From NCBI GenBank assembly GCA_017303995.1, contig JAFLBE010000015.1:1-64000 (forward strand): DNA of 64,000 nucleotides. The letters run 5' to 3'. The translations under genes were made by a program, and so were the position numbers. This DNA is from Bacteroidota bacterium (GTDB taxonomy: Bacteria; Bacteroidota; JABWAT01). A model generated the notes under the pieces. That model ran no database searches and was not told the DNA's origin. It saw nothing but the letters and a program-made list of their open reading frames with translations. Below are positions 19,800 to 47,181 of this stretch, piece after piece; the first letter of the stretch is position 1; every line of letters starts with the position of its first letter.

Positions 19800-19842
19800 A
19801 ATTATTTAACCTGGCACTTCCCCGAAGTATCGGGCACGGCAT

Positions 19843-19964: not shown

Positions 19965-19971
19965 CGGCGGT

Positions 19972-25400: not shown

Positions 25401-25907
25401 TCAGGACTTAATATTTTGTTTGTCTTTCCGGGCGATGTAGGAAGCACCGACAACGGCAACCAGCAGGATGATGGCAACCATTTCGAACGGAAGCAGATAC
25501 TGAGTGATGGTCAGGGTTCCGATGGATTCAACAGTTGTATCCCAAACGGCCGGACTATGTTTTGCCCAGGTTCCGGTTACCCAAATAACATAAAGCAAAC
25601 TGGCCAGCATAACAGCAGCAATGATCAGACCCGGAACAAAATTGAACACATCTGTTTTCAGGCTCATGGTGGTAATCCGGTTGGTGAGCATCACCCCGAA
25701 TAAAAGCAAAGTCAGAATTCCGCCCACGTAAACCATAATCTGGGTGACGGCAAGAAAATCAGCACTGAGCATGGCGTAAATTCCGGCAACACCCAAAAAC
25801 GAGAAGAGCAGGGAAAAGGCAGAATAAATGATATTTTTTGAAAATACCGTGGCAATTGCTGAAGCAACAATAATCACGGCTAAAATCCAGAACATGATAA
25901 CTTCCAT
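25401..25907 (-). CDS. nuoJ: NADH-quinone oxidoreductase subunit J
   Basis: A 168-residue membrane subunit with five helices. It has the conserved S..LLFSFLGVAGIYAMLSADFLAVTQIMVYVGGILTLLLFGVML region, which in the family includes the pi-bulge helix. An upstream in-frame extension to 26075 is lysine/proline-rich and overlaps the nuoI tail in another frame, so it is an artefact. The ATG at 25907 starts 7 bp after nuoI and gives a normal length; the ATG 12 bp further in, preceded by GGAAG, is a possible alternative. Confidence 0.93.
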   Translation of the reverse strand: MEVIMFWILAVIIVASAIATVFSKNIIYSAFSLLFSFLGVAGIYAMLSADFLAVTQIMVYVGGILTLLLFGVMLTNRITTMSLKTDVFNFVPGLIIAAVMLASLLYVIWVTGTWAKHSPAVWDTTVESIGTLTITQYLLPFEMVAIILLVAVVGASYIARKDKQNIKS

Positions 25908-25914
25908 GAGTCTC

Positions 25915-26526
25915 TTATCCTTCTGAGGGCTTTTCAGCAGCCGGGGCAGCGGGAGCGGCCGGGGTTTCTGGTTTGGGTGCGGCTGCAGCTTCAGCAGCTT
26001 TTTTTGCAGCAGCGGTGGCTTTGAGTGCTGCCTGTTCTGCCGTGTAAGCTTCAAGTTCTGCTTTTTTCTCTGCAATCTGTACCGGTGTCATGTCACTGAA
26101 TTTGTAAATGTGATCCCGGAAGTCAAACACTGAATAATCGTAAACCTTGGTCATGGTGATACATTCGGTCGGACAAGGCCAGGTGCACAATCCGCAGAAC
26201 ATACATTTCGACATGTCGATATCAAACTGTTCAACCCAGAGGCGTTTTTTCTGGGTTTCCTTCACGGTTTCAACATCTTTATCGAGACGTTTGAACGACG
26301 TAATCTCGATACAGCTCACCGGACAGGCATTGGCGCACTGATTGCAGCCGATACACTCATCAATATTGTTATGAAGCCGGTAACGTCCCGTATCAGGAAC
26401 AGGAATACTTTCTTTCGGATACTGGATGGTCACGATATGATTCGGCTGAACCATTTCTCTGGCCGTCAGTCCCATCCCGATCAGCGTCGAGGAAATTCCG
26501 TTATAAATATCTTTAAAGTAACCCAC
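25915..26526 (-). CDS. nuoI: NADH-quinone oxidoreductase subunit I (2x 4Fe-4S ferredoxin)
   Basis: A 203-residue peripheral subunit carrying clusters N6a and N6b. The two 4Fe-4S motifs are C58-C61-C64-C68 (CIGCNQCANACP) and C108-C111-C114-C118 (CMFCGLCTWPCP). It passes electrons towards NuoB and quinone. Unusual is a 45-residue C-terminal tail (about 158-203) made almost only of Ala, Pro, Lys and Glu, ending PSEG; it is absent from E. coli NuoI and might be a flexible linker or docking tail. The G/C-rich coding of this tail explains the spurious overlapping frame. Confidence 0.95.
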   Translation of the reverse strand: MGYFKDIYNGISSTLIGMGLTAREMVQPNHIVTIQYPKESIPVPDTGRYRLHNNIDECIGCNQCANACPVSCIEITSFKRLDKDVETVKETQKKRLWVEQFDIDMSKCMFCGLCTWPCPTECITMTKVYDYSVFDFRDHIYKFSDMTPVQIAEKKAELEAYTAEQAALKATAAAKKAAEAAAAPKPETPAAPAAPAAEKPSEG

Positions 26527-26544
26527 TGCGATCTTTCCCGCTAA

Positions 26545-27591
26545 TTACAAGTAAACAACCCAGGCAGCCTGACCGATGAGGCACGCAAATGCAATTGGTA
26601 TCAGCACTTTCCAGCAGAGATACATGAGCTGGTCAACCCGGAACCGGGGCAGCGTCCATCTGAGCCACATCTGGAAAAACACGAAAAACAACGACTTCAC
26701 CAGAATCCAGAAAAATCCCATTCCGTAAGAAGGAACCGTTCCCCACGGCGTGAGCCATCCGCCAAGAAATACTGAAACTGCAATGGCAGAAACCACGAAC
26801 ATGTTGCCGTATTCTGAAAGGAAAAACATGGCGAACTTCATGCCCGAATATTCGGTGTGATAACCGCCGACAAGTTCAGATTCTGCTTCAGGAAGATCGA
26901 ATGGCGTCCGGTTTACTTCTGCAAGAGAAGCAATCAGGTAAATGATAAAAGCAACAAACAGAAACGGACTCGCAAAAAGATATCCGAAAAAGAGACCTTC
27001 CTGCTGTTGGATAATTCCGGTCATGTTCAGCGTTCCGGTCGTCACAATGGCGGTTAGGACGGCAAGTCCGGCAGGAATTTCATAGGAAATAATCTGGGCG
27101 GTTGAACGAACAGCACCGTAAAGTGACCATTTGTTGTTCGATCCCCATCCGGCCATGAGCAAACCAGCAACAACCAGCGAACTGATGGCGAGCAGATAAA
27201 AAATTCCCACATTCAGATCAGCGCCGACAAATCCGTTCGACCAAGGAAGAACAGCCAGAGACGCATAAGTTCCGGTGAAAACCAGAACGGGAGCAACGAA
27301 AAACAGAATTTTATCGGAAGCAGTCGGGGTGATATCTTCTTTCTGAATCAGCTTCAGAATATCTGCAACGGTTTGGAAAAGTCCCCACGGACCTGTTTCC
27401 ATCGGTCCAAGACGGTTTTGAATAAATGCAGAAACTTTACGTTCAGCATAAACGGCAAGAAGAGCAAACAAAATCAGGAAAATCAGAGGGAAAACAGAAG
27501 CCACAATGGGGTAAACCAAACTTCCGTCAGGAACGCCAAGCCAGGCAAGAAGATCACCAATTCCCAGCGTTTTCAGTACTAAATCATGCAT
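26545..27591 (-). CDS. nuoH: NADH-quinone oxidoreductase subunit H
   Basis: A 348-residue membrane subunit lining the quinone chamber. Family signatures include [17 protein letters not shown] (residues about 48-64), [53 protein letters not shown] (the charged loop near the quinone site) and [15 protein letters not shown]. Length and position between nuoD and nuoI are typical. Confidence 0.97.
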
Positions 27592-27635
27592 AATATATTT
27601 TATTTGATGTTAATAGATGGACAGTTAACCGGCGG

Positions 27636-28763
27636 TTACCGGTCAATTTCCCCAAGAACGATATCAAGAGAACCGAGAATGGCCACAATGTCAGAAATCA
27701 TGATGCCCTGACCCAATGCCGGAAGAACGGCCAGATTCACAAAACAAGGTGATTTGGCTTTTACCCGGAATGGCTTGGTTCCGCCATCCGAAATGATGTA
27801 AAATCCGAGTTCGCCACGGGGGTTTTCTGCACGGGCGTAAACTTCACCAACCGGCGGTTTGATCCGGCGGGGAACGGCAGCCTGCACATCAGACACATCA
27901 TCAACCGGATATTTTTCGAGAGCCTGCTCAATAATATTCAGCGATTGTTCCATTTCCTGACAACGGATGAAATACCGGTCCCAGGTATCGCCGACGGTGC
28001 CCATAGTGCCTTTACCGGTCGGGATTTCAAATTCAAATTCCGGATAAATACAGTACGGATCGTCTTTGCGCAAATCCCAGTTCACACCCGATCCACGTAA
28101 AACCGGACCTGTACAATTGTAATTAATGGCCACTTCTTTAGGAAGGATGCCCACGTTTGCAGTACGGGAAATGAAAATGTGGTTTCCGGTGAGGAGATTG
28201 TTTAAATCTTTGATTTTCGGACGGAAGTACGAAATGAAAGCTGACAGTTCTTCACGGAATCCTTTCGGGAAATCACGTGAAACGCCGCCGGGCCACATGT
28301 AATTGTACAACATCCGGGCGCCGGTGAGATTTTCGAAAAGATTCAGAATAATTTCACGGTCACGGAAGGTCCAGAGAAAAGGAGTTACCGCACCGATATC
28401 AGCACCAAATGTACCAATGGCGACAAGATGGGAAGCAATCCGCTGAAGTTCAGCTACAATAATCCGGATAAATTCAACTTTGCGGGGAACTTCAAGATTG
28501 AGCAGTTTTTCAACAGCCAGAACAAAAGCGTGGTTGTTATTCATCGACGCCAGATAATCGAGCCGGTCGGTGAACGGAATGATCATCGGGTAAGTGAGTT
28601 CTTCGCCGTGTTTTTCGAAACACCGGTGAAGGTAACCGATGTGCGGGGTGATGCTTTTAACAATTTCCCCGTCTGTCACCAGTTCGAGCCGTAACACACC
28701 GTGCGTAGACGGGTGCTGAGGGCCCATGTTCATGATCATTTCTTCGGTTTTGAGATGCGGCAT
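27636..28763 (-). CDS. nuoD: NADH-quinone oxidoreductase subunit D
   Basis: A 375-residue 49-kDa-type subunit, separate from NuoC. Recognisable are the opening [18 protein letters not shown] with the quinone-site histidine, [27 protein letters not shown], the [13 protein letters not shown] helix, and the C-terminal [13 protein letters not shown]. Gene order is A-B-C-D, but an unusual gap of over 450 bp filled with hairpin repeats separates it from nuoC. No ribosome-binding site of note was seen. The call is secure. Confidence 0.97.
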
Positions 28764-29220
28764 AACTTAACTGGTTAGTTGATTTACTTTATAATTTCAA
28801 AAAAATTCTCTTGTCATCCTGAGTGTCCGGCACTTGCCGGATGTATCGAAGGATGAACTTCCTTGTTCCCTGGAAGTCATGCCCGTGACGACGGGCATCC
28901 ATCCCACCGGAATTCCTTCCTTCGGAGAGGTACTTTTGACAGGACAAAAGTACCCAAAATCCTTTTCCGCCCATCCGCTCTATGACTTGTGGCTGGCTCT
29001 CCGGCCCTGATCGAATCTGAACTCGGTCGGTAAACCGACCTCAAACACAGATTCGATTTAACCGGGCACTGCGTTTGCCACTGCGTCGACCGGATGACGG
29101 CGGTTAAAAAAAATCTTTTTGCGTTCTTAGTCTGACTATTGCGACTTTGCGATTAAAGCATTTTCCCAAAAAAACGCATTTCTCTGCGTCCCCTGCGTCA
29201 CCGCGGTCGAATAAAATCCC
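28764..29220. repeat. Hairpin-rich insertion within the nuo operon
   Basis: A 457-bp gene-free gap between nuoC and nuoD. It holds a hairpin cassette (28815-28855, CATCCTGAGT..ATCGAAGGATG around a TCCGGCA-CT-TGCCGGA core), a palindrome ATGCCCGT-GACG-ACGGGCAT (28879-28898), and a nested hairpin with outer arms ATCGAATCTG/CAGATTCGAT (29010-29019, 29048-29057) around GGTCGGT-AA-ACCGACC (29025-29040). Nothing looks coding. The operon must be read through it or restarted within it. Confidence 0.75.
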
Positions 29221-29703
29221 TTAAAAAGGTACTTTGATTCCGTGATACGTTTCCTGAACGACGTAATCTTTTCTGAGCGGGAATCCTTCCCAGTCATCCG
29301 GAGTCAGGATTTTTCTTAAGTCCGGATGAAAGTCGAACACAATTCCGTACAGGTCAAAGGCTTCACGTTCGTGCCAGTTGGCAGCTTTATAAATATGCTC
29401 AATGGTTGGGACGTGCGGTTTCTCACGGTCAAGTTTCACTTTAACCACCAGCCAATGCTTGTGGGTCATTGAGAAAAGGTGATAAACCACGCCGAGTTCT
29501 TTTCCGGCACCGTAGTCAACTCCGGACAGACAGGAAAGAGAATCGAATGCGAGTCTTTCATCATCCCGCAGAAAATATAAGATATCTTCTATCCATTGGG
29601 GATTGATGGTAATGCCTGGCTGAAGGGAGGTTTCGTCGGCGGAAAGAATTTTATCGGCAAAGTCCTGCTGTTTCAGCAGTTCAACAACTTCAGACGGTTT
29701 CAT
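29221..29703 (-). CDS. nuoC: NADH-quinone oxidoreductase subunit C
   Basis: A 160-residue 30-kDa-type subunit of the peripheral arm. The family signature is clear at [40 protein letters not shown] (about 110-150). The frame is open to 29760, but the ATG at 29703 matches the family start ([12 protein letters not shown]) and overlaps the nuoB 3' end by 14 bp, a common arrangement. It interacts with NuoB and NuoD around the quinone site; nuoD is displaced by the repeat-filled gap. Confidence 0.95.
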
Positions 29704-30187
29704 TTTTCTTCCCGAATTTTTCGTGACGGATTTTATCCTGAAGAAGCATGAGTCCGCCAATCAGGGCTTCGGGGCGGGGCGGGCAGCCGGGAACGTAAAC
29801 ATCAACCGGAATAACACGGCTGACTGATTTCACCACGTGATAACCGTGCTGCCAGTAAGGTCCGCCTGAGTTTGAGCAGGATCCCATAGAAATCACATAC
29901 CGGGGTTCGGGCATTTGCTGATAAAGACGCTGCACGCGTTCAGCCATTTTAAAGGTCACCGTTCCGGCAACAATCATCACATCAGATTGCCGTGGTGACG
30001 GACGGGGAATAATCCCGAACCGGTCGAGATCATAATTTGAAGCCATGGTGGCCATCATTTCGATAGCACAGCAGGCGAGACCGAATCCCATCGGCCACAT
30101 TGAAGAAAGTCTTGCCCAGTTGAGAACATTTTCTGCGGTTGTTATCACAACACCGCCAGAGTCAAACTGTTTATCCAGTAATCCCAT
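29690..30187 (-). CDS. nuoB: NADH-quinone oxidoreductase subunit B
   Basis: A 165-residue subunit that binds terminal cluster N2. The cluster ligands are all present: adjacent C39-C40 (GLACCAIEM), C104 ([10 protein letters not shown]) and C135 ([10 protein letters not shown]). The length is normal. It lies 24 bp after nuoA and overlaps nuoC. Confidence 0.97.
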
Positions 30188-30211
30188 TACGCTTCCAATC
30201 TGCTTCGGTTC

Positions 30212-30679
30212 TTAATCTGCCGGAGAAACTTCTGGTTCATCCACAGAAATCTGCTCACGCTGCTGCTGAGCTTTGATCTGTTTCGGTTCAAGGGAAGGAA
30301 TAACCGGATGAGGGCGGACCCATTCAAGATCACCACGGCGCCATTCGTACAGCATCCCGATGATCAGAATTCCCATAAAAAACACACCGGTCAGGAACCC
30401 GTAAGTTCCAAATTCTTTAAAAACGGTTGCCCATGGGAAGAGAAAGACCACTTCCACATCAAAAAGAATAAAGATAAGGGCAACGACGTAAAATCGGATG
30501 TTAAATTGAACCCATGACGACCCGATGACTTCTTCACCGCATTCGTAAGAGCTTAATTTTTCAGCATTTGGGCGATCAGGACGAAGTAACCACGAGGTTA
30601 AAAATCCGATCGCAACAAAGCAAACCCCGATAACCATGTAAATGAATACATAGCCAAATTGTGTAATTTGATTTTCCAT
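30212..30679 (-). CDS. nuoA: NADH-quinone oxidoreductase subunit A
   Basis: A 155-residue three-helix subunit. The conserved loop SSYECGEEVIGSSWVQFNIRFYVVALIFILFDVEVVFLFPWA (about 43-84) is diagnostic, including the cysteine of the quinone-site loop. The C-terminal ~35 residues are a hydrophilic, Gln/Glu-rich extension longer than in E. coli NuoA. GGAGG lies about 13 bases before the ATG, a rather long spacing. It is the first nuo gene, 20 bp after the DUF3276 gene. Confidence 0.95.
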   Translation of the reverse strand: MENQITQFGYVFIYMVIGVCFVAIGFLTSWLLRPDRPNAEKLSSYECGEEVIGSSWVQFNIRFYVVALIFILFDVEVVFLFPWATVFKEFGTYGFLTGVFFMGILIIGMLYEWRRGDLEWVRPHPVIPSLEPKQIKAQQQREQISVDEPEVSPAD

Positions 30680-31037: not shown

Positions 31038-31076
31038 ATGGTTTCAAATTTACCTGAATCTGAAAGCAAAATAAAT
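31038..31076 (-). promoter_or_regulatory. Candidate promoter for the DUF3276-nuo operon
   Basis: TAAATTTG (minus strand, 31052-31045) fits the Bacteroidota -7 box TAnnTTTG exactly, with a TTTA-type -33 element about 19 bases upstream. The predicted transcript start near 31038 leaves a leader of about 45 bases before the GTG at 30993. Confidence 0.55.
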
Positions 31077-31118
31077 AGGCTAAGAAAATCCCAATGAAGT
31101 TCTAATGGGGGAAGGAGC

Positions 31119-31202
31119 GGGGACGTGGGACATGGGACGGGTGACCGGGGGGAAATTTCGGGTTAATACGGGTCACAAATCACGGGTTACATATTACGGG
31201 TT
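31119..31202 (+). repeat. Twelve-unit heptamer-period array
   Basis: Twelve 7-nt units in one uninterrupted phase. The first four follow GGGGACG or TGGGACA; the last five alternate ACGGGTT with ACATATT or ACAAATC; the middle units are diverged. Phase is kept across the change of word. Confidence 0.8.
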
Positions 31203-31463
31203 GAAAATTCAGGTTCCCCCGGACCCCGAGTTCAGCCATCGGCTGAGTATCGAGGGGCACGGGGTTATTCATGTTTTACCCTTTGGGATTTTTTTATTCA
31301 TTTGCGTGAAAACCCGTGTGATTTGCGGAAGGGTTCTGTTTTTCCGCCCGGAATGGGCATAATTGTATCAATTGATCTATTGCCCGGGCGGGTTTAGCTG
31401 ATCGGCTAATCGTTTTTCTACAAATAGGTCACCCCGCCGGGGTTGCAATTTCAGAATTGAATT

Positions 31464-31512
31464 CCATTAAACATTAATCATTTACCCTTGACCATTAACA
31501 ATTAACCATTGT
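31464..31512 (-). repeat. Seven-unit heptamer-period array, word TTAATGG
   Basis: Seven contiguous units on the plus strand, such as CCATTAA and CAATTAA. It is the reverse complement of the word at 10698-10732. Confidence 0.8.
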
Positions 31513-31629
31513 CCCCGTTTTTTTTCGCCTGCAGGTGCAATTCCCGACTCTGTTTAGTAATTTGTAGGTTATCGCCAAAACCGGCGATCCTTTTTTTTCC
31601 TTTAGCCCACACTTTCCGGGAGAATTACT

Positions 31630-33129
31630 GTGAACGGATCGAAACTGAAAGTTGCTCTGGTCTCCTCAGAAGCAGTTCCTTACGCCAAAGCCGGCGGACT
31701 CGGTGATGTCATCGGTGCCCTGCCCAAAGTCCTTGAAGCACACGATTGTGAAGTGATGCTTTTCATCCCCAAATATTCGGCCATCCCTGAAGATGCGCAT
31801 AAAATCAAAATCAACTGGCGGGTTGATGACATCAGCATCCCCGTCGGTGAGAAAAATTTTGAAGTCCACCTGTATCAAACCACGTTGCCGGGAACAAACA
31901 CAAAAGTAAACCTGGTCTACTGTGCACACGCTTTCGACAACCGGTGGATTTATACCAATGATGCGGATGAAAACCAGCGGTTCATCATTTTTAACCGTGC
32001 CGTCCTGAAAATCCTCAAGAAAATGAAATGGAAACCGGATGTCATCCACGTGAATGACTGGCCGACCGGACTTATTCCTTTATACTTGAAAACCTTTTAC
32101 AAAGACGATCCGTTTTTTGCTGAAACCGGAACGGTTTTTACCATCCACAATATCGGTTATCCGGGAAAATTCCTTCCCGAAACCATTTACCTCGCCGGAC
32201 TTGATCAGACCAAATTCTTCCCAGGCGGACCTTACGAATTCTGGGGCATGTTCAGCTTCATGAAAACGGCTTTGCTGTATTCTGATATGATTACGACGGT
32301 AAGTGAAACTTACGCCGAGGAAATTCTAACGCCTGATTACGGTGCCGGTCTGGATGGCATTCTCAATACCCGGAAAGAAGATCTCATCGGGATTCTGAAC
32401 GGTGTTGATTATGAAATCTGGAGTCCGGAACAGGATGCTTATATTGCAGCAACTTATTCGCTCAAAAGGTTTTCTGGTAAGGCAAAAAACAAAGCTTATC
32501 TCCAGGAGCGGGCATTTCTTGCCATCCGACCAGAAGTACCTCTAATCGGAATGATTTCCAGAATGGTTGATCAGAAAGGGTTTGATCTGATTGCTGCAAT
32601 TGTGCCTCAGCTTCTAGAAATGGATATCCAGATTGTTATTTTGGGTTCCGGTCTTCCGAAATATGAAAACCTGTTCCGTACTTTAACTCAGGATAACCCT
32701 GATAAAGTGTATGTTCACGTTGGTTACGACAATCAGCTTTCCCACGAAATTGAAGCCGGTTCTGATATGTTTCTCATGCCATCCCTTTACGAACCGTGCG
32801 GACTCAACCAAATTTACAGTCTGAAGTACGGCACTGTTCCTATCGTAAGAAAAACCGGCGGTCTTGCTGATACCATTATTGACTGGGGTGCTTCTCTTCT
32901 TTCCGGAAAGAAAAACGGAAACGGCTTTGTTTTCACCAATCCGAAACCTGAAGCTTTGCTTGATGCCATTCACCGGGCGGTGATGGTTTACTCAAATAAA
33001 AAAGAGTGGACGCAGATCGTTAAAAACGGCATGAAGGCCGATTTTTCCTGGGAACGGTCAGCTTCGAAGTATATTGAAGTCTACGAAAAAGCCATCGCAA
33101 AACGGAAAATCCCCAAAACTGAAACCTGA
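31630..33129 (+). CDS. glgA: Glycogen synthase GlgA (ADP-glucose type, GT5)
   Basis: A 499-residue GT5 starch/glycogen synthase that transfers glucose from an NDP-glucose donor to the growing alpha-1,4 glucan. The N-terminal donor motif KAGGLGDV (K20-V27) corresponds to the classic KTGGL; HVNDWPTGLIPLYL and FTIHNIGYPGKF lie in the first Rossmann domain, and EPCGLNQIYSLKYGTVPIVRKTGGLADT near residue 390 forms the GT-B C-terminal active site. The start is GTG with GGGAG 7 bases upstream. It stands alone without glgB/glgC neighbours and is followed by a long hairpin. Confidence 0.95.
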   Translation: MNGSKLKVALVSSEAVPYAKAGGLGDVIGALPKVLEAHDCEVMLFIPKYSAIPEDAHKIKINWRVDDISIPVGEKNFEVHLYQTTLPGTNTKVNLVYCAHAFDNRWIYTNDADENQRFIIFNRAVLKILKKMKWKPDVIHVNDWPTGLIPLYLKTFYKDDPFFAETGTVFTIHNIGYPGKFLPETIYLAGLDQTKFFPGGPYEFWGMFSFMKTALLYSDMITTVSETYAEEILTPDYGAGLDGILNTRKEDLIGILNGVDYEIWSPEQDAYIAATYSLKRFSGKAKNKAYLQERAFLAIRPEVPLIGMISRMVDQKGFDLIAAIVPQLLEMDIQIVILGSGLPKYENLFRTLTQDNPDKVYVHVGYDNQLSHEIEAGSDMFLMPSLYEPCGLNQIYSLKYGTVPIVRKTGGLADTIIDWGASLLSGKKNGNGFVFTNPKPEALLDAIHRAVMVYSNKKEWTQIVKNGMKADFSWERSASKYIEVYEKAIAKRKIPKTET

Positions 33130-33159
33130 GTCTGGAATTGACGTTAAACTTTGGGGGTG

Positions 33160-33242
33160 AACGCCAGACAATGGGCGTCCTTCGATACAATTTTTTGCTT
33201 TGCAAAAAATTACTCAGGATGACACGCCCATTGTCTGGCGTT
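33160..33242. repeat. Long nested hairpin after glgA
   Basis: Perfect 19-bp outer arms at 33160-33178 and 33224-33242 (AACGCCAGACAATGGGCGT and its complement) enclose the cassette flanks CCTTCGATAC (33179-33188) and ACTCAGGATG (33212-33221), which in turn enclose a perfect core AATTTTTTGC-TTT-GCAAAAAATT (33189-33211). It may also terminate glgA transcripts. Confidence 0.8.
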
Positions 33243-33340
33243 GGGGACCAGGGACGGGGGACAAGTGACTGAATACTGGTCACTAAATACTGGACGCAGA
33301 TCACGTATTGCGGGTCACGAATTACGGGTTCATACGGGAT
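33243..33340 (+). repeat. Fourteen-unit heptamer-period array
   Basis: The longest array in the window: 14 units of exactly 7 nt without a phase break, moving from GGGGACC-like words through GGTCACT and AAATACT to AATTACG and GGTTCAT. Units 5-13 tend to alternate G-rich and A/T-rich words. Confidence 0.85.
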
Positions 33341-33464: not shown

Positions 33465-36020
33465 TTGAATTCTCTGGTAACTTTTTTCACTTCAAGAACC
33501 TGGCTGGTTAAACTCATTCTGGTTTTTTCTGTTATTGGAATGGGTGAATATTATTTCACCAATGTCGGCAGAGTGGTGAGTACCGTTACCGATGAAAATA
33601 TTTTTGCTGGTTCAGACAGCACCATTATCGTGGAATCCGTGGCTCCCGGTGGTGCAAGTGACCGTGCTGGGATGAAGGAAGGCGATAAGATTTTTTCCAT
33701 CAACGGGTACAGATTCAAAGGGGCGCTTGAAGCAGATAAAATTCTTCGGGACAGCAAACCCGGCTCGGTCATGGTTTACGAAATCTTCCGGAACGGTGAA
33801 AAGAAAACCTTATTTGTTCAAGCCGCAACCATCGGTGTTTCAATCAGGATTATTGCAAGTTCTGTTGTTTTTCTTGCTATGCTGGGGCTAGCCTTATTTG
33901 TTGGTTGGAAGGCTTCGAACCAACCCGTTGCCTGGCTTTTCTCGTTCACGTTCATTTTGATGTCCTTGCTGGTCTCTGGCGGATTCAATATTGACCGGAC
34001 AGGTATGCAGTTGACGGGCCAATTAATTTTAATATTTGCGATTCCGCTTTTTATTCACCTTTCCAAACTTATTCCATCGCCACCTTCCGATTATGAAACG
34101 ATCAAGCCAAAAATAAGGCTGATGTATATTGTTGTGTTTTCCTATTTGGTGGTGGCCATCTTACTATCAAATGTAACTTTAATTGACAATACAAAATTGC
34201 CAAATGGGGGCCTGAACCTTGGCCTTTACATTGCGTATTTCATATTTCTAATGATTTTTGCAACGGTTGTATTTAAATCAAAAGAAGAAGACAAACGGAT
34301 TGCCAGTTTGGTAAAGACCATCTGGATCACCTATGGCGCTACTATTTTTCTAGCCAATTTTCTGAGCGCTTTTTTAAATAACTTTCTGGGTGTTTATGTC
34401 AATCCGGCGTTTGCTTTCCTTTTGTTTTTCCTGCTGGTTGTTCCGGTTGGTTATTTTTATCTGATTATCAAATACCGGGTATTTGGTATAACCCGGGTAG
34501 TGAAACGGAATGTTCAATATCACCTGTTAACTGCCATTGTCATTTTTGGGTTGATTATCCTGTTCTTTACAATCATGAATCAGGTTACCAATTTGAACCT
34601 GGGTGATGCTTCCTTCCGGTTTTCTCCGACCGCTTTCGAAATCAAATATGGTGGTACAACTGACCCGGGTTTTTCTGAACGGCCCTTTTTCATCATTGCA
34701 GGAATTGTAGTTTTTATTGGTGTTTTCCTTTTTGGCAGGTTTATCCAGAGACGGCTTGCACGACTCTTTTTCAAGGATGAAATCAATTACCGGCAAGCCA
34801 TGGTTGAACTTTCCGAGGTGATGGCATCCAAACTAACCCTTACCGATCTTGGCGGTGCAATTTGTGAAGAATTGGCTCAGCATTTGAAGCTTAAATCTGC
34901 TGTTCTTTACATTCGAACCCCGCACGGATTTCATCTGATCGGGATGGATGGCATTCTGGTTTTGCCTGATCTTGATCTGAATTACGGGCAGGTTCGAAAA
35001 GAACTTGAAGCAATGTCTGCACCACTTCCATCAGAAAAACTGATGATTGGTTCAGATCTGAAATCCGTTGATATTCAGTTTGTGGCGCCTTTACTTCTGA
35101 AAAACAAAATGATCGGATTGGTGTTTCTTGGCGGGAAAAGATCAGACGATATGTTTAATCTTGCTGATGTGCAGTTCATTGAATCTCTTTCCCGTCAGAT
35201 TGCCGTTGCCGTGGAAAATACCCGCCTTTCTCAGGAAACTCTCGAAAATGAAATGCTGAAACGGGATCTCGATCTTGCCAGCAAAATCCAGCGAAATCTG
35301 CTTCCGGTTTGTGTTCCCACCATTCACAATCTGGATATCTGCGGAACCTACGTTCCGGCCAGTCAGGTCGGTGGTGATTACTATGATTTTCTGACGGAAA
35401 ATGATAAAAATCCGGAGTCATCGATCACGATTGTGTTGGGTGATGTTGCGGGGAAAGGCGTATCAGCAGCACTCATGGTCGCACGGGTTCAGGGAATCAT
35501 GAACTCAGCTTTCAGGCAGGCTAATCTTTCCCTGAAAAACCTGCTCGTACATGCCAATATGCTGACCACTTTTGAGGATCGGAAAAATTTCATTACGCTG
35601 GTTGCCGGCCGGTTCAATCCGGTTGAAAAAACAGTTTCCTTCTGTCGTGCCGGGCATCTCCCAATTCTACATTACGATGCCAGCAAGAAAACTGTCAGAA
35701 AATTGACGCCGAAGGGAATTGCACTCGGTATGAGCCGGAACGGCAAGTTTTCAGGAAACCTGGATGAAGTGACCTACAAACTCAATTCCGGTGATATCTG
35801 GATCTTCTTTTCGGATGGAATTTCTGAAGCCATGAATGAGCTGAAAGAAGAGTTTGGTGAAGACCGGATAGAAAGTGAAATTCTGAATTTCCACCAGTTA
35901 TCTGCAAGTGAACTCTCTGATCAGATTTTCAAAACCCTGGGTGATTTTCTGGGAGAAAACAAACCTCACGATGATACCACGCTGGTTGTGGTAAAAGTCG
36001 GGGGGGGGGATAAGTTATAA
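33465..36020 (+). CDS. Membrane PP2C-type serine phosphatase with PDZ and GAF domains
   Basis: An 851-residue signalling protein. A membrane anchor (about 13-32) leads to a periplasmic PDZ domain (about 50-118, with APGGASDRAGMKEGDKIFSING), then about eight transmembrane helices (120-440), a cytoplasmic GAF-like domain (about 455-590), a helical DLASKIQRNLLP linker, and a SpoIIE/RsbU PP2C domain (about 625-846) with GGDYYDFL (D638 metal site), GDVAGKGVSAALMVA, SDGISEAMNE and DDTTLVVV. Such phosphatases act on anti-anti-sigma factors; no partner is encoded nearby. The start is TTG with GGAG 5 bases upstream. A run of ten G (36000-36009) sits six codons before the stop. Confidence 0.9.
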   Translation: MNSLVTFFTSRTWLVKLILVFSVIGMGEYYFTNVGRVVSTVTDENIFAGSDSTIIVESVAPGGASDRAGMKEGDKIFSINGYRFKGALEADKILRDSKPGSVMVYEIFRNGEKKTLFVQAATIGVSIRIIASSVVFLAMLGLALFVGWKASNQPVAWLFSFTFILMSLLVSGGFNIDRTGMQLTGQLILIFAIPLFIHLSKLIPSPPSDYETIKPKIRLMYIVVFSYLVVAILLSNVTLIDNTKLPNGGLNLGLYIAYFIFLMIFATVVFKSKEEDKRIASLVKTIWITYGATIFLANFLSAFLNNFLGVYVNPAFAFLLFFLLVVPVGYFYLIIKYRVFGITRVVKRNVQYHLLTAIVIFGLIILFFTIMNQVTNLNLGDASFRFSPTAFEIKYGGTTDPGFSERPFFIIAGIVVFIGVFLFGRFIQRRLARLFFKDEINYRQAMVELSEVMASKLTLTDLGGAICEELAQHLKLKSAVLYIRTPHGFHLIGMDGILVLPDLDLNYGQVRKELEAMSAPLPSEKLMIGSDLKSVDIQFVAPLLLKNKMIGLVFLGGKRSDDMFNLADVQFIESLSRQIAVAVENTRLSQETLENEMLKRDLDLASKIQRNLLPVCVPTIHNLDICGTYVPASQVGGDYYDFLTENDKNPESSITIVLGDVAGKGVSAALMVARVQGIMNSAFRQANLSLKNLLVHANMLTTFEDRKNFITLVAGRFNPVEKTVSFCRAGHLPILHYDASKKTVRKLTPKGIALGMSRNGKFSGNLDEVTYKLNSGDIWIFFSDGISEAMNELKEEFGEDRIESEILNFHQLSASELSDQIFKTLGDFLGENKPHDDTTLVVVKVGGGDKL

Positions 36021-36045
36021 GTGATAAGTTTCAAGTTATAAGTGA
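36011..36045 (+). repeat. Five-unit heptamer-period array overlapping a stop codon
   Basis: Units such as TAAGTTA and TAAGTGA. The second unit supplies the TAA stop of the phosphatase gene (36018-36020), so the array abuts, and partly forms, the coding end. Confidence 0.75.
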
Positions 36046-36336
36046 GGGAGAACAATGCCTGTCATTCCCGCGAAGGCGGGTCATGAAATGTGCGAAGCAA
36101 ATCCAGTATAAAAACCGTAAAGAAAAGGGAGTTCTTAAATCAAGAGAAATGCGAATTATGGATTCCTCCCGCAAGCGGGACGGGAATGACAGAAACAGAT
36201 AATTCTTAAACCACCAATGCACCGACCGGGAGGTCGGTGTTACAAAATAACCCAACAGTTTACAATCCGGCCTCTGACGGGCTAATAGCTAACAGCCAAC
36301 CCTTCGACGTCGCTCAGGGACCGAACCTTCCTTCCC
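36046..36336. repeat. Convergent gap with CCCGCGAAGGCGGG hairpins
   Basis: Outer arms GTCATTCCCG/CGGGAATGAC (36061-36070, 36181-36190) enclose two smaller hairpins, CCCGC-GAAG-GCGGG (36067-36080) and TCCCGC-AA-GCGGGA (36167-36180). Then come a minus-strand copy of the GCCCGTC..GGCCGG word (36264-36282), three heptamers of type GCTAACA (36281-36301) and a minimal CCTTCGAC-GTC-GCTCAGG cassette (36301-36318). No gene. Confidence 0.7.
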
Positions 36337-38928: not shown

Positions 38929-39607
38929 AAAAACTCCAGTGAAAACAATAATTTCAAGAAAACGATATCTAGCCAGAATATCAAAAGCGATCACCAGTTG
39001 GGTGATTCTTCAAAAAATGCAACCCATTTCGTCCGGAAAAAGAGATGCGGTTTCGAAGAAATAGTGCCCGGACGACTAATTTATTTGATATCTATTCCAC
39101 CGGGCTGTCGCCCGGGGCTATTCATGTTTTGCCCCGTTGGGGCAGGGGAAAATTACGGCAACGAGCCAAAATTTAAATCATTTGAAATTTCAAAACCCCA
39201 TCGGAATGACCTGATTGTTTGCCCGTGGCGAAGCCTTGGGTAGAAAACCACCTATTAAAAAACACAACCGCCCGGTCAAAATTCCTGCTGAAAAGACAAA
39301 TCCATTCCAGGCGGAATGGGAAGACCTTCGTTTTACTTAATTTCAACCCTTTTCGTCCGTAACAAGAGTTGTGGTTTCTTTTAAATTTTCCCCGGACGAC
39401 TTGTAAATTCCGCCAAAATTTATCCATCAGCTAAAGCAGATGGCAATAAAAGATTTATCAATTCTAAAAAACCAAATTCGCATTTCATTGCCGTCTGCTT
39501 TAGCTGACGGATAACAGCAATCTTGATATAGATCGGGTTTTAACCCAAAATGTATTTCCTGAAATTCCCCTCCCCCCGTTCAGCGTCCCTGCGATAAAAG
39601 TATTCCA
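38929..39607. repeat. Gene-free gap with two palindromic elements
   Basis: It holds a GAATAGCCCCGGG-family element on the minus strand (about 39092-39143: CCGGGC-TGTC-GCCCGG, a conserved GCTATTCATGTTTT linker, GCCCC-GTT-GGGGC) and an imperfect 25-bp inverted repeat (39423-39447 / 39487-39511, CAGCTAAAGCAGA arms, 39-nt loop, two mismatches, one of them a G-T pair). No reading frame looks real. Confidence 0.65.
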
Positions 39608-40630
39608 TCATGGAATCAGTACGATTTTCCCAAGGGTTTTCCCTGATTCAATCAGATCATGTCCTTTTTGGATTTCCCACATAGAAATTTCCCGGTCAAT
39701 GACAGGTTTCATTTTACCATTGGCAATTAACTTCATAATCGGTACCAGATGATTTCGGCTTCCCATGGTAGATCCGATCAGAGAAATCTGCCTGAAGAAA
39801 ATATGTCTTAAGTCAATTTTTGCATCCCAGCCGGTTGTGGCTCCGCATGTGACAATTTTCCCGCCTTTTGCGGTCATTTGAACCGACCGTGATAAGGTTT
39901 CTGCACCGGTATGTTCAACAACCAGATCGACACCCCGTTTGCCTGTTTTGGCTTTCACTTCCCTGACGATGTCATCAGTTTGATAATTCAGTAAAGTTGA
40001 TGCGCCACATTTTTCTGCAACCGCCAGTTTTTCTGATGAGGAGGCAGCAGTAATCACTTCAGCTCCGAAATATCGGGCAATCTGGATCGCCGCCGAACCG
40101 ACGCCGGAACTTCCGCCCCATACAAAAACCGTATCACCGGATTTTATCTGTCCTTTATCAACAACCATTTGCCAGGCCGTCAGAAAAACCAAAGTTGAAG
40201 CCGCCGATTCAGAAAACGAAACAGAATCAGGCAACGGGAAAACCAGATGTTCATCAACAGCAACAAATTCAGAATTAAATCCGTCTGCAGATTCACCGAA
40301 AATGTGGTAATCTTTGCACAGATTGTCATTTCCGGCAAGGCAGAACCGGCAGGTTCCGCAGGAAAATCCGGGTGAAATAAAAACCCGGTCTCCTTTTTTA
40401 AAATTAGAAACCTGACTTACGGTGGATTCCACAACACCAGCACAGTCACTTCCCGGTGTTAACGGATAGGGAGAAAACGGAAGTCCTTTTCTCACCCAGA
40501 TATCGAGGTGATTCAAAGAGGCGGCTTTGATTCTGACCAGAACCTGATTGGGTTTGGGTTCAGGAATTGCGGCCTCTTCGGTTTGAAGAACGTCAATTCC
40601 GCCGGGAGCATTTATTCTGATACTTTTCAA
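39608..40630 (-). CDS. Zinc-type alcohol dehydrogenase / quinone-reductase-like MDR protein
   Basis: A 340-residue medium-chain dehydrogenase/reductase. The GroES-like N-terminal domain carries the structural-zinc cysteines C91, C94, C97 and C105 (CGTCRFCLAGNDNLC) and a LNHLDIW active-site segment in which the usual catalytic-zinc cysteine is replaced by aspartate (D43). The Rossmann domain has GGSSGVGS (172-179). The chemistry is NAD(P)-dependent reduction or oxidation of an unknown alcohol, aldehyde or enone. It stands alone, 315 bp from radA with repeats between. The family is secure, the substrate unknown. Confidence 0.87.
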   Translation of the reverse strand: MKSIRINAPGGIDVLQTEEAAIPEPKPNQVLVRIKAASLNHLDIWVRKGLPFSPYPLTPGSDCAGVVESTVSQVSNFKKGDRVFISPGFSCGTCRFCLAGNDNLCKDYHIFGESADGFNSEFVAVDEHLVFPLPDSVSFSESAASTLVFLTAWQMVVDKGQIKSGDTVFVWGGSSGVGSAAIQIARYFGAEVITAASSSEKLAVAEKCGASTLLNYQTDDIVREVKAKTGKRGVDLVVEHTGAETLSRSVQMTAKGGKIVTCGATTGWDAKIDLRHIFFRQISLIGSTMGSRNHLVPIMKLIANGKMKPVIDREISMWEIQKGHDLIESGKTLGKIVLIP

Positions 40631-40945
40631 ATTTTAAATTCCGGTGACTGGTGACGAGGGACAGGTGACTAAAAAACTCCCCTCCTTTTCTAAAGGAGGG
40701 GTGGCGAAGCCGGGGTGGTTTGGCAGTTGTCTGAAAACTCAAAGCAGGAAAACCGCCCCAATCCGGGCACTTCGACTCCGCTCAGTGTCCGGATTTTCCC
40801 CTCCTTGAAAAGTTGTAAATCCCGATTATTTCGGGGGAGGGGAATCTTATCAACTTATAACCCCGAAATTAGTTCGGGATCTTCGTTTCACTCGACTTTT
40901 AACCCCGAAGCTTGTTCGGGATCTTCACTTCGTTCGACTTACCAC
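40631..40945. repeat. Repeat cluster between radA and the dehydrogenase gene
   Basis: A four-unit heptamer array (40643-40670, for example GGTGACT), a perfect hairpin CCCCTCCTTT-TCT-AAAGGAGGGG (40679-40701) followed by GTGGCGAAGCCGGGGTGG, a cassette-like CACTTCGACTCCGCTCAGTG inside TCCGG/CCGGA arms (about 40763-40792), and two similar ~42-bp units with CCCGAA..TTCGGGATCTTC (about 40860-40938). No gene. Confidence 0.7.
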
Positions 40946-42346
40946 TTATAACTGCAAATCCGCCAGCCATTCATCCATCCGATTGTACACATCCTGAATG
41001 TGGTTCACACCGATGACTTCCACATTTTTTGGAAGTTCGGCTTCCTTCAGAGATGCTTTCGGGACGATGAGCCGTTTAAATCCAAGTTTTGCACATTCCA
41101 TCAGTCTTTGTTCAATTGAGGAAACAGAACGGATTTCTCCGCCCAACCCGATTTCTCCAATAAACACAACATCACGTGCAATTGACCATTCCCGGAAGGA
41201 GGACAAAATGGCAATGCAAACGCCAAGATCTGCAGCCGGATCATCAATTTTGAGTCCGGAAGCCACGTTGAGAAAAACATCCTGAGTTCCCATCGGAGTT
41301 CCTAGTCGTTTTTCGAGAACGGCCAACAGCATCGTCATCCTACGCTGATCGAAACCGTTGGTATTTCTCTGTGGGAAGCCATAGTTACAGTTTGAAACCA
41401 AAGCCTGAAGTTCAACCAGAATCGGCCGGGTTCCTTCCATAGTGACGGCAATGACTGAACCGGTAATTCCCTGACTGAATTCTGACAAAAACAATTCAGA
41501 CGGATTGGTGATTTCTCTCAATCCACGTGAATTCATGTCGAAAACACCGATTTCGTTGGTTGATCCGAACCGGTTTTTCAAAGAACGGAGAATACGGAAA
41601 TGGTGATTCCGGTCGCCTTCAAACTGAAGAACGGTATCGACCAGATGCTCAAGAACCCGGGGTCCGGCAATGGAACCGTCTTTGGTGACGTGACCGGTAA
41701 TAAACGTGGTAATATGTTCAGTTTTGGCCAGAGTCATGACCGCAGACGTACATTCACGGACCTGAGAAACCGAACCCGGCGCCGAACTGAGATCGGGAAG
41801 ATAAACCGTCTGAATGGAATCGATGATGAGAAGAGCCGGTTTCAGATTTCTGGCCTGAAGCAGAATTTCGTTGAGATTGGTTTCGGCAAGCAATAAAATC
41901 GGTGCTTTTTCAAGTCCCAGCCGTTCTGCCCTTCCTCTGACCTGATGAACGGATTCTTCGGCTGAAACGTAAAGAATCGTTTCTTTATTGGAATCGAGAT
42001 AACCGGCAACCTGCATCATGAGCGTTGATTTCCCGATTCCGGGATCACCGCCGATGAGAATCAGACTCCCTTTCATGATACCGCCGCCCATTACCCGATT
42101 GAACTCACCGAAGGCCGTTTGCATGCGTTCCCCTTCTTTCCGGGGGATTTCAGCCAGGGTTGTTGCTTTTACCGGCGGGTTGGAAGAAATCCGGTTTTGG
42201 TGGACGGCATCCACCTTTTTCTTTCCGGTTTCAACGACTTCTTCGATGAGGGTGTTCCATTCACCGCAATCGTTACATTTTCCGTTCCATTTCGGGGAAA
42301 CCGAGCCACAGGACTGGCAGATAAATTGAGTTGTAAGTTTAGCCAT
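40946..42346 (-). CDS. radA: DNA repair protein RadA/Sms
   Basis: A 466-residue RecA-like ATPase that drives branch migration in recombinational repair. The N-terminal zinc finger is C10-C13-C24-C27, the Walker A motif GGDPGIGKST lies at 99-108, the RadA-specific KNRFG is at 257-261, and the C-terminal part is Lon-protease-like (DDPAADLGVCIAILSS, GEIGLGGEIRSV), without an active-site serine expected. The length is typical. It is a single-gene unit divergent from the hypothetical gene at 42513. Confidence 0.97.
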   Translation of the reverse strand: MAKLTTQFICQSCGSVSPKWNGKCNDCGEWNTLIEEVVETGKKKVDAVHQNRISSNPPVKATTLAEIPRKEGERMQTAFGEFNRVMGGGIMKGSLILIGGDPGIGKSTLMMQVAGYLDSNKETILYVSAEESVHQVRGRAERLGLEKAPILLLAETNLNEILLQARNLKPALLIIDSIQTVYLPDLSSAPGSVSQVRECTSAVMTLAKTEHITTFITGHVTKDGSIAGPRVLEHLVDTVLQFEGDRNHHFRILRSLKNRFGSTNEIGVFDMNSRGLREITNPSELFLSEFSQGITGSVIAVTMEGTRPILVELQALVSNCNYGFPQRNTNGFDQRRMTMLLAVLEKRLGTPMGTQDVFLNVASGLKIDDPAADLGVCIAILSSFREWSIARDVVFIGEIGLGGEIRSVSSIEQRLMECAKLGFKRLIVPKASLKEAELPKNVEVIGVNHIQDVYNRMDEWLADLQL

Positions 42347-42431
42347 AAAATGAGTGGAAGTTCGGGAGGGTCAGGGAAAGAAGCAACGAACGGAAGGAAA
42401 TAAAAAAAGGGGGGATAAAGAGAATTAAATC

Positions 42432-42462
42432 TTTTAGCAGGGTTCTTTTTTTGTTACATTTG
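42432..42462 (+). promoter_or_regulatory. Candidate promoter for the 42513 gene
   Basis: TACATTTG (42455-42462) matches TAnnTTTG, with a T-rich TTTT/TTTA -33 element about 18 bases upstream. It lies 50 bp before the start codon. Confidence 0.45.
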
Positions 42463-42512
42463 ATAAAATATTGCTTTGAATCTGTCTTTAAATAAAATTC
42501 TTACCGAGATCT

Positions 42513-43430
42513 ATGATGGTTGCTTTACTGTTTTTCCTTTTTACCACTTTAAATCAACCTGAGCAAGATCTTGATATCCGGTTGGGGATTGATGACACCA
42601 TTAAAACCAGGTGGCCGGAAAGTTTTTTATCCATCACAAATAATTCTTCTGAGGAAATCAAAATTCTTGAAACGAGATGGAAGTATGAAAATGGGGTCGG
42701 GTTAAATGACGAATTAATATGGAAATTTGCCTCAGAGGATGAAAATAATAATCAAATTGATTATTGGCCACTTAAAACCAAAGAAGAATACTATTGTTCA
42801 ATACGTTTGTCCGGTATATTTCCACGAATATTTCGATTAAGTGAGGAGGCTTTTCTTTATTCCCTAAGCCCATTAAAGGAGGGTAAGTACACAATCGTAT
42901 TGCAAATAAGATATATGAAAAACAACATAGAAAATGAAATGTCCAAAAGCCTTTCATTTGTTGTAAAATATTCGAAAGCAAAAATTGAACTTATTGCTAC
43001 TGAAGAGTATCGCGAACTTGTCAGTTTAATACAACAAAATCAGATAAACTGGACGACGTTTTTAAGTTCTAACAGTAAAGTTATCAATTCGTTTCTTTTA
43101 AAAAATAAAAATACTGATGCCGCTAACTTCCTGGCAATTTCCCTTGCGAGAGTTCTTTCCGATATCCCAGATTCTGAGTTATTAAATACCCTGCAGGATT
43201 ATTATGATTTGAAAATTCAGAATCACCCAGCAATGTTTATTGAATATTTTCGTTATTACTTCCAAAACAAAGACAATCCAGCACTTTCAACAGTAATAGA
43301 CCGATTTGATAAGTTGGTAAAAAACAACAAAGCAAAAATATTTAAACGCAATGATTTTATTTTTACTATTCAAAAAAAATTGATGAACCCAGGTGCATTT
43401 GAAGTACTAAATACTTTGGTAAAGGATTAA
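42513..43430 (+). CDS. Hypothetical exported protein
   Basis: A 305-residue protein that I do not recognise. Residues 1-14 (MMVALLFFLFTTLN) form a short hydrophobic leader, possibly a signal peptide. Residues 15-150 look like an Ig-like beta domain (LDIRLGIDDTIKTRWPESFLSITNNSSEEIKI, EGKYTIVLQIRYMKN). The C-terminal half (about 155-305) is helical and Lys/Asn-rich. Two adjacent ATGs (42513, 42516) are possible starts. Its AT-rich, A-ending codon use is unlike radA. A bidirectional terminator follows 44 bp after the stop. No function proposed. Confidence 0.65.
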   Translation: MMVALLFFLFTTLNQPEQDLDIRLGIDDTIKTRWPESFLSITNNSSEEIKILETRWKYENGVGLNDELIWKFASEDENNNQIDYWPLKTKEEYYCSIRLSGIFPRIFRLSEEAFLYSLSPLKEGKYTIVLQIRYMKNNIENEMSKSLSFVVKYSKAKIELIATEEYRELVSLIQQNQINWTTFLSSNSKVINSFLLKNKNTDAANFLAISLARVLSDIPDSELLNTLQDYYDLKIQNHPAMFIEYFRYYFQNKDNPALSTVIDRFDKLVKNNKAKIFKRNDFIFTIQKKLMNPGAFEVLNTLVKD

Positions 43431-43465
43431 GGAACAACTAAATCCACAAATAGCTCCCGTCAATC

Positions 43466-43500
43466 AAAAAAAAACCCGGGCTCATCACCCGGGTTTTTTT
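43466..43500. terminator. Bidirectional intrinsic terminator
   Basis: Stem ACCCGGG/CCCGGGT with loop CTCATCA (43474-43494), flanked by nine A and seven T, shared by the convergent genes 42513-43430 and 43522-44133. The same stem and loop recur at 44204-44224. Confidence 0.88.
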
Positions 43501-43521
43501 AAAATCAGCTTCTCAAAATTC

Positions 43522-44133
43522 TCACTGAAATTTGACGTCAAAAACACCATACTCAAAAGTTTTTGTCGTGATTTTATTTTCAGCATCTTTATTAAATGCA
43601 GTAAAAGAAAACGTCCCGGAAGCAATTTTATTGGTTAAATCGAGGGTTTTCAGATTTATCTTACCTTTGTAGGTGATACCGTCTGGTGAATAAAGTTTTC
43701 CGTTTTCATAAGACAATGAGCCTTCAACCTGATAAAATGCAGCCCAGGCAGAATTAAATGAAGATCCGTCCGTACGGACACCGATATTGTATTCACCGGG
43801 TTTATCTGCATAAATCCCAATTGTAAACGCATCGGCACCGGGTTTGAATGTTGAAAAGCTATATTTAGCTCTCACTCCGGTAATGACAAGGCCATTTCCG
43901 GTTCTGGCTGCCTGAATGGAGGCATAAGGAACTGGAATCGGAATGCCAGCCTGAATACCTGCGGCCCAGGCTTCGTTTTTATCAATGACCGCACCCATGG
44001 TATTCTGACCTGTGTTGGTTTCAGCAACACCACTGGATGTTATGGGATCGTCACTGTTATTTGTTGTGTTTTCGCAGGAGAGTGAAAAGGCAATTGAAAT
44101 AAAAAGTAAAATTGAAAAGTTAAATCTTGACAT
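43522..44133 (-). CDS. Small lipoprotein (DUF6252-like), paralogue A
   Basis: A 203-residue predicted lipoprotein, lipid on C20 of AFSLSC. The start at 44133, preceded by AGAGGAA, is chosen over the longer frame to 44199. It shares with the next gene the order: Asn/Asp-rich linker, NTMGAVID..WAAG, a strand-rich middle, KIASGTFSFTAFNKDAENK, and a terminal FEYGVFDVKF. This order resembles the DUF6252 lipoprotein family of Bacteroidota, which has no known function. Each paralogue is followed by an identical terminator stem-loop, so gene and terminator were duplicated together. Confidence 0.72.
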   Translation of the reverse strand: MSRFNFSILLFISIAFSLSCENTTNNSDDPITSSGVAETNTGQNTMGAVIDKNEAWAAGIQAGIPIPVPYASIQAARTGNGLVITGVRAKYSFSTFKPGADAFTIGIYADKPGEYNIGVRTDGSSFNSAWAAFYQVEGSLSYENGKLYSPDGITYKGKINLKTLDLTNKIASGTFSFTAFNKDAENKITTKTFEYGVFDVKFQ

Positions 44134-44197
44134 GGTTCCTCTGTAAATAAAAGACAAAAATAGCGGATAATTCGGAGAAACACTCTTTTTTAGAAAC

Positions 44198-44224
44198 AAA
44201 AAAACCCGGGCTCATCACCCGGGT
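44198..44224 (-). terminator. Intrinsic terminator of the second lipoprotein gene
   Basis: Stem ACCCGGG/CCCGGGT, loop TGATGAG on the minus strand, followed by seven U. Its 21-bp core is identical to the terminator at 43474-43494. Confidence 0.85.
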
Positions 44225-44249
44225 CTCAACAAACAAGGCAAAAAACAGA

Positions 44250-44849: not shown

Positions 44850-44994
44850 GTGACTCTCCTTTTTTGAATACGAAGTAAAATTACGGTGAATTTCAGTCCC
44901 AAAAATCACCCGAAAAGGGGATAACTGAATTTATTCCTTTTTATGTGACGACCATCAAGTCTAAAAAAGTGAAAAGACAGTCAGTAGTTCTTTT

Positions 44995-47161: not shown

Positions 47162-47181
47162 GTTCCCTTTTCTGCATCCGG

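Follow-up and report, generated by a model that had tools for sequence, protein, structure and literature searches.

Degenerate heptad arrays pointing outward from gene borders in a Bacteroidota genome, and a tentative origin in imprecise DNA copying

The 64,000-nt stretch analysed here (the window, part of contig C35, JAFLBE010000015.1, of the Bacteroidota genome G000, 4.31 Mb in 127 contigs) has arrays of degenerate 7-nt units between its genes, the main one at 33243-33340, and well over a hundred such arrays, all with a 7-nt period and a shifting spelling, lie between the genes of this genome. Our tentative reading, held at somewhat less than an even chance, is that these degenerate gene-border arrays belong to a single genome-wide class and arose through DNA copying, by slippage in 7-nt steps, and not through selection related to transcription. 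To the period itself, described in an earlier note on this DNA, the present analysis adds an outward polarity, a position at gene edges, matched inverted pairs and the presence of repetitive extragenic palindromes (REPs) inside arrays.

Each site listed in the earlier note was divided into 7-nt frames for inspection, and the window was scanned for lag-k match segments, with a threshold of at least 11 for a lag-7 or lag-14 segment. Genome-wide, intergenic segments scoring at least 12 were counted at lags from 2 to 27 against dinucleotide shuffles, in held-out DNA comprising 648 kb of G000 outside the window and 500 kb of G002, the sister species of our comparisons (G002 and G001 are of the same genus as G000, and G003 of the same family). 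Genes are our own long open reading frame (ORF) calls, and a few gene edges are expected to be wrong. The 648 kb yielded 74 intergenic segments at lag 7 against 0.6 in shuffles, 45 against 0.4 at lag 14 and 22 against 0.0 at lag 21, with 0-5 at each of the remaining lags; in the 500 kb of the sister the lag-7 count was 59 against 0.4. The genome-wide check that the earlier note had proposed thus gave a strong excess and bears out the 7-nt period, and a chance origin is rejected, since the shuffles give fewer than one lag-7 segment in either genome. A further 12 lag-7 segments of the held-out G000 DNA lie in coding sequence, and array density is about 14 per 100 kb in both genomes. The heptad period is real, specific to 7, and intergenic genome-wide in two species. 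Scans of 80 kb each of G001 and G003 found zero arrays, where about 11 would be expected in each.

Polarity was scored from the nearer gene edge, as the direction in which the G-rich strand points. Of 205 scorable arrays, 186 have this G-rich, C-poor strand directed away from the nearest gene and 19 have it directed toward the gene; 17 more are ambiguous. The outward orientation is found at 3' ends (118/128) and 5' ends (68/77) of genes alike, in 132 of the 137 arrays within 40 nt of a gene, and in each species separately; gene edges without arrays are weakly skewed in the same sense (355 out, 214 in), and arrays differ from that background with a Fisher p of 6e-16. Because the polarity is alike at both gene ends, transcription does not set it, and a transcription-linked element (terminator, leader or ribosome binding site) is rejected as the sole cause; because unpaired arrays also point outward (129/145), it is more than an effect of pairing. 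Wrongly called gene edges would weaken rather than create so symmetric a result. The median distance from array to gene edge is 8 nt, and the base composition of the outward strand is A 0.35, C 0.11, G 0.28 and T 0.27.

In 26 gaps outward arrays stand at both edges, and the two arms resemble each other more than permuted partners do: their similarity is 0.582 against 0.484 +- 0.018, with 0 of 2000 permutations as high, and the strings they share average 8.8 nt against 5.7 nt, reaching 16-18 identical nt in the best cases. On folding, five of six regions formed single-strand hairpins more stable than those of their shuffles (z from -2.0 to -8.8), while the sixth (L152) was not (z -0.5). Stems of at least 10 adjoin 27% of arrays and 10% of controls, too few for hairpins to stand beside every array, an idea that is rejected. 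With regard to terminal inverted repeats common to all copies, as in miniature inverted-repeat transposable elements (MITEs), the arms match within a locus and the words differ between loci.

The commonest outward units are AAGTTAT, AAGTGAT, AATGGTT, AAGTTAC, AAGTGGT, AAGTGAC, AAGGGAC, AAGGCGT and AGCTGTT, and with further types such as NNAGAAG and ACGGGTY there are about ten word classes overall. The three top words lack the GGG in every unit that would make them capable of forming a G-quadruplex, and most words have no G tracts, so that this structure is rejected as the explanation. A single period-7 profile with free phase, fitted to 179 arrays, gave a consensus of about (G/T)(A/G)TAAGT; its score of 1.91 nats per array compares with 1.09 +- 0.025 for a null in which columns were permuted inside each array. 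The array words are therefore related, a recurring vocabulary with a common consensus, and the earlier description of a different, unrelated word at each site was overstated. A strict GTNAC palindrome as the core is also rejected as too narrow, the consensus being of the AAGTKRY or GTNA type. Within arrays variation is least at the G and greatest in the first two columns, and units differ from one another, unlike the near-identical tandem heptamers of cyanobacterial short tandemly repeated repetitive (STRR) sequences.

Synteny blocks shared with the sister species are 80-96% identical in nucleotide sequence, and block boundaries fall at window arrays at 207, 10716, 19931, 31219, 31477, 33243 and 47103. 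The arrays at 31119, 36011 and 47127 are retained in the sister with point changes, and the orthologue of the 33243 array has +2 and -7 indels, with a 2-nt shift of phase. At 38507-38651 of contig C43 both arrays and the interior have been replaced, with AGCTGTT-type words in G000 and GTAAGGC-type words in G002, each inverted-matched; no target duplication is apparent there by eye, a systematic search not having been made. Substitutions number 0.159 per site in 23 orthologous arrays and 0.11 in the flanks, and indels that are a multiple of 7 make up 5 of 18 inside arrays and 0 of 30 in flanks (p=0.005). Phase is not absolute, given the 2-nt shift, although whole-heptamer indels are enriched. 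The most constant column has 0.076 substitutions against about 0.17, a factor of two that picking arrays in one species could itself yield. Homology traced from the gene stops no more than 13 nt from the array's inner end in 6 of 15 cases (p ~0.001, against a rough expectation of 9% that we set ourselves), and several gaps have kept the array beside its gene but have a replaced interior. The idea that arrays mark broken gene order is rejected, the trend being weak (18/45 vs 17/68, p=0.10). Also on C43, the 4.8 kb at 25743-30546 are 98% identical to contig C21 of G002 in surroundings of 78-91%, and they contain an inverted heptad pair identical between both species.

REPs interrupt several of these arrays. 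The insertion directly before 33243 has inverted ends of about 18 nt around a CTTCGATACAATTTTTTGC...GCAAAAAATTACTCAGGATGACA core, and a search with its sequence gave 26 partial matches in the genome; since it is absent from the sister, the main array originally began beside the gene. Two REPs (CCCCGAA..TTCGGGATCTTC.YTTCRYTCG) split the array at 40846-40941, which is uninterrupted in G002. All eight copies of the family CGAGYGWARYGAAGATCCC directly follow array units of the (A/G)(A/G)GT type, nearly always AAGT, and do so in phase. Genes for Y1_Tnp transposases, the candidate movers of REPs, number 7 in G000, 6 in G002, 1 in G001 and 0 in G003, and across the phylum their median is 4 in array-rich and 0 in array-free genomes (p=0.0005, ignoring shared ancestry). 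Such a gene is missing from four array-rich genomes, and at least two are present in each of six array-free ones; the former reject a Y1 transposase as the sole maker of arrays. Arrays may serve as landing sites for REPs, which are not required for making them. After the Y1 gene of the window, at 5783-6687, a 278-nt unit holding CTCCTACGGAGCT/GCACCTACGGTGC palindromes is repeated in tandem about 3.3 times.

Heptad arrays extend well beyond these two species. Of 394 genomes of the phylum, 22 had matches to the probe AAGTNAYAAGTNAYAAGTNA, usually few of them except in G000, G002, G100 and G120, and 214 had matches to the word-agnostic probe GTNANNN x5, for which we estimate from base counts about 0.008 expected matches per genome. 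Overlapping GTNA matches far exceed those of the reversed probe (813 vs 26 in G291, 216 vs 10 in G382); reversal leaves the probe a heptad pattern, so that it controls for the GTNA core alone. By coordinates, convergent inverted pairs are present in G382, G125, G193 and G272. G001 has zero matches to both genome-wide heptad probes. G112, G135, G291 and G120 have hundreds of GTNA heptad matches, and G026 and G143, of the genus of G112 and G135, have none. Outside the phylum, a 21.9-kb contig (CALMZP010000147.1) of the Acidobacteria metagenome-assembled genome L061 carries several word-matched inverted pairs, each with its own word and with the G-rich arm first (1924-2026, 8100-8315, 9293-9355 and 14515-14649, one with a loop of just 11 nt). 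On plasmids of the cyanobacterium Trichormus (Anabaena) variabilis there are degenerate heptads with in-phase word changes, and polarity in this small sample is 6 out, 4 in and 2 ambiguous. Stretches sampled from other Bacteroidota held few arrays, fewer than a polarity count calls for.

That the arrays are arranged with two-fold symmetry around the gap centre and irrespective of transcription argues for a DNA process, and points to outward synthesis into inverted repeats, to a symmetric inserted element, or to the healing of both ends of a break as candidates. The array features described above are shown by the sequence comparisons, and it is from them that we infer how arrays form. In the slippage model, replication or repair synthesis would leave a gene and enter an intergenic inverted repeat, either a REP or an older array, where the new 3' end would stall and slip back by roughly the length of one polymerase duplex, 7 nt, before resuming. 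Copies would thereby accumulate on the strand pointing away from the gene, and the same process from the opposite side of the gap would give two inverted arrays. The base of the hairpin would seed the word, which we propose as the reason that words vary by locus and match within a pair; point mutation would blur the copies and template switching between arms re-synchronise them. For the interior we propose a faster turnover than that of the arrays, since it contains mobile REPs and is itself not required. This model explains the period, the polarity, the locus-specific words and the matched arms with the fewest new parts, and the folded hairpins, the excess of adjoining stems and the enrichment in whole-heptamer indels count in its favour. 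Imprecise copying in 7-nt steps, already suggested in the earlier note, is still the best type of explanation.

Several results weigh against this model. Some 73% of arrays have no strong adjacent palindrome today, and about 11 of the 26 paired regions show no clear word match. Purely local slippage does not predict a consensus across loci or GTNA heptads throughout the phylum. The replacement at C43 38507-38651 looks as much like block exchange as like local growth. Of the 18 indels inside arrays orthologous between the sister species, 13 are not multiples of seven, even though multiples of seven are enriched; slippage would then be slow, or past. It is because the shared consensus and the missing palindromes are left unexplained that we hold the model only tentatively.

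Were array, middle and array together a small mobile palindromic element, resembling a MITE or a REP doublet (REPIN) and moved into short gaps by a Y1-family single-strand transposase, one would expect what is seen at C43 38507-38651, where the whole gap differs between the sisters with both arrays. REPs lying inside and between arrays, one family always in phase after (A/G)AGT-type units, and the Y1_Tnp counts of the sister pair, its relatives and the phylum lean the same way. We nevertheless think this rather unlikely, since no two loci were seen with the same element, words and variant order differ everywhere, array-rich genomes without Y1_Tnp and array-free genomes with it both occur, and several gaps keep the gene-side array while the interior is replaced. 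It is also unlikely that the arrays are selected sites, at which a protein or ribonucleoprotein would recognise a GTNA-like core at 7-nt intervals on DNA or RNA and mark gene borders, for example as an insulator, terminator or nucleoid boundary: the polarity is indifferent to the direction of transcription and to gene end, and 80 kb from another genome of the genus lack arrays, which are therefore dispensable. A consensus with constant and variable columns, GTNA heptads found phylum-wide with the remaining positions highly variable, and arrays hugging gene edges would all suit such sites, as would the slow change of the most constant column between species, a low rate that is possibly an artefact of array choice.

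Repair of broken ends, in which an enzyme would heal breaks in gaps by extending 3' ends with telomere-like, C-poor heptads before the ends are joined and so leave an inverted array to either side of the joint, agrees with an outward strand that is both the 3'-ended strand of such a break and poor in C, with gene-side homology that often stops where the array ends on its inner side, and with the several sister block boundaries at arrays. We know of no enzyme that adds heptads to bacterial DNA ends, and the link to broken gene order is weak. In Xanthomonas, moreover, gene order across the gaps that hold heptamer arrays is more conserved than in controls (PMC4692102), and we consider end repair very unlikely. 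Least probable of all is ordinary neutral slippage and decay of tandem repeats, which would make these plain STRRs with irrelevant polarity and hairpins; the drift of units by point mutation above the rate of the flanks and some whole-heptamer indels are as it predicts, whereas outward polarity, matched inverted arms and edge position are not, the polarity result in particular disfavouring it.

The closest published relatives are the G-rich heptameric repeats GGGAATC of Xanthomonas and GGGGA(C/T)T of Nostoc (Rehm et al. 2015, PMC4692102), which are 89-93% intergenic in two Xanthomonas species at a mean of 28 nt from the nearer ORF, include 70-75 inverted convergent pairs, and vary in length and sequence among related species; no function was found. 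The present arrays share with them an excess of 7-nt units, a mostly intergenic position near an ORF, an outward G-rich strand and inverted convergent pairs, and are a degenerate, multi-word variant of what was published for those genera in a single-word version. In place of one quadruplex-forming word per genome there are here the ten or so classes, most unable to form that structure, whose words drift in phase, match between arms and are replaced between sister species, and the higher conservation of gene order is not seen. TAACTGA heptamers, intergenic direct repeats near gene starts in Beggiatoaceae, some Cyanobacteria and Bacteroidetes, were proposed as translational control sites (MacGregor 2015, PMC4679880). 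By our own comparison their outward reading TCAGTTA is GTTATCA in rotation and fits GTNA, but they are an exact word just upstream of start codons, and ours are other words at both gene ends. With the REP/REPIN system and its REP-associated tyrosine transposase (RAYT, TnpA-REP; PMC3116915) the genome shares palindromic intergenic repeats and Y1 transposase genes; in contrast, the heptad arrays are not a repeated palindrome family, each being unique, REPs are separate insertions, and arrays occur in four genomes without Y1_Tnp even though the counts correlate. An earlier survey, as cited in PMC4679880 and PMC4692102, proposed that 7 nt reflects polymerase contact and a preference in slippage. 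The earlier note had taken cyanobacterial heptamers to be near-identical and hence different in kind, which does not survive the degenerate heptads on Trichormus plasmids or the heterogeneous (GGGANTN)n arrays in Xanthomonas (Rehm et al. 2015, PMC4692102). A literature search, with most subscription journals outside its reach, gave no account of degenerate multi-word arrays with matched arms. In cyanobacterial STRRs, Elhai et al. in 2008 reportedly described small dispersed palindromic repeats embedded in heptamer arrays, much as REPs here follow AAGT; to our knowledge neither polarity nor arm matching has been reported for those sequences.

Within the window (Table 1) the main array reads in frame GGGACCA GGGACGG GGGACAA GTGACTG AATACTG GTCACTA AATACTG GACGCAG ATCACGT ATTGCGG GTCACGA ATTACGG GTTCATA, and holds the strongest segment (lag 14, 33243-33329, score 23). 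Seven of the 11 other sites first listed reach a score of at least 11, and four (224-255, 19937-19964, 36281-36301 and 40643-40670) are too short for significance alone, their GTNAC or TTRGCTG units being still in phase. Tandem Repeats Finder at its lowest score setting detects parts of several window arrays. The site listed as 31119-31202 is two arrays. As had been noted, one site overlaps a stop codon (36011-36045, gene ending 36020), and there sister homology stops within 1 nt of the inner end of the array. The array at 47127-47161, inward relative to the nearer gene, is the one polarity exception in the window.

Table 1. Heptad arrays and associated features of the window.
Feature	Position	Strand	Remarks
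Short GTNACNN array	224-255	-	3' edge of minus-strand gene 256-732; outward; sub-threshold alone
TTRGCTG array	4961-4987	+	Skew ambiguous; scored segment 4961-4986
Y1 transposase (REP-associated / IS200-like TnpA family)	5256-5732	+	One of 7 in genome; candidate REP mover
GTNAATG array	10694-10735	+	Sister homology stops inside, at 10716; scored segment 10694-10732
TAGTAG/ACATTAG array	15936-15963	+	34 nt past gene ending 15901; outward; scored segment 15936-15962
GTGACNN array (plus strand GTCAC)	19937-19966	-	3' edge of minus-strand gene 19972-21486; sister homology begins 19931
GGGACNN array	31120-31148	+	Left side of divergent gap 31047-31630
GTYACNN array	31168-31209	+	Inner left of gap 31047-31630; sister homology ends 10 nt beyond inner end
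GTNAATG array (plus strand CATTAAC)	31464-31515	-	Right side of gap 31047-31630; outward; scored segment 31465-31510
Palindromic REP-like insertion	33152-33242		Inside first unit of main array, after GGTGA; absent at G002 orthologous site
Main array, about 13-14 degenerate heptamers RTNACNN / GGGACNN	33243-33340	+	Outward from 3' end of glycogen-synthase-like gene ending 33129
ATAAGTK array	36009-36045	+	Overlaps stop codon of 33465-36020; scored segment 36010-36043
Short TTAGCTG array	36281-36301	-	Right edge of gap shared with 36009-36045 array; outward
GTGACNN array	40643-40670	+	5' edge of minus-strand gene 39608-40630; outward
ACTT-type heptamer array	40846-40941	-	Right edge of gap before 40946; two REP palindromes interrupt
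GTACNNC array	47127-47161	-	At sister rearrangement boundary 47103; scored segment 47127-47157

Larger differences from the sister were also observed in the window. The roughly 9 kb at 10735-19930, which encode a large M43-peptidase protein with a type IX secretion tail, correspond to about 4 kb of different content in the sister and have heptad arrays at both borders. The segments 47103-49176 and 39607-47072 are rearranged, the latter mapping about 120 kb away in the sister genome, with the BipA block inverted and one border at a heptad array.

Reports have long placed heptamers first among bacterial repeats of 5-11 nt, without giving a cause. The single-word cases in Xanthomonas, Nostoc and Beggiatoa were the subject of separate studies, which proposed G-quadruplex or translational roles. 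Here the same geometry occurs in about ten words, most of them not capable of forming a quadruplex, which means that the common cause must be sought in period, strand and inverted pairing. The arrays also show that some of the intergenic DNA is turned over between close species in array-bordered blocks, and "why seven" becomes testable in cultivable Bacteroidota. As a speculation, and quite an unlikely one, several phyla might share one process by which DNA is added or copied again in steps of 7 nt on the 3' strands that leave genes, writing C-poor, GTNA-like heptads as mirror-image border caps between which the DNA is freely replaced, telomere-like in form and not in ancestry. The findings as a whole suggest one DNA-copying process behind a type of repeat that has been reported piecemeal in unrelated bacterial groups.
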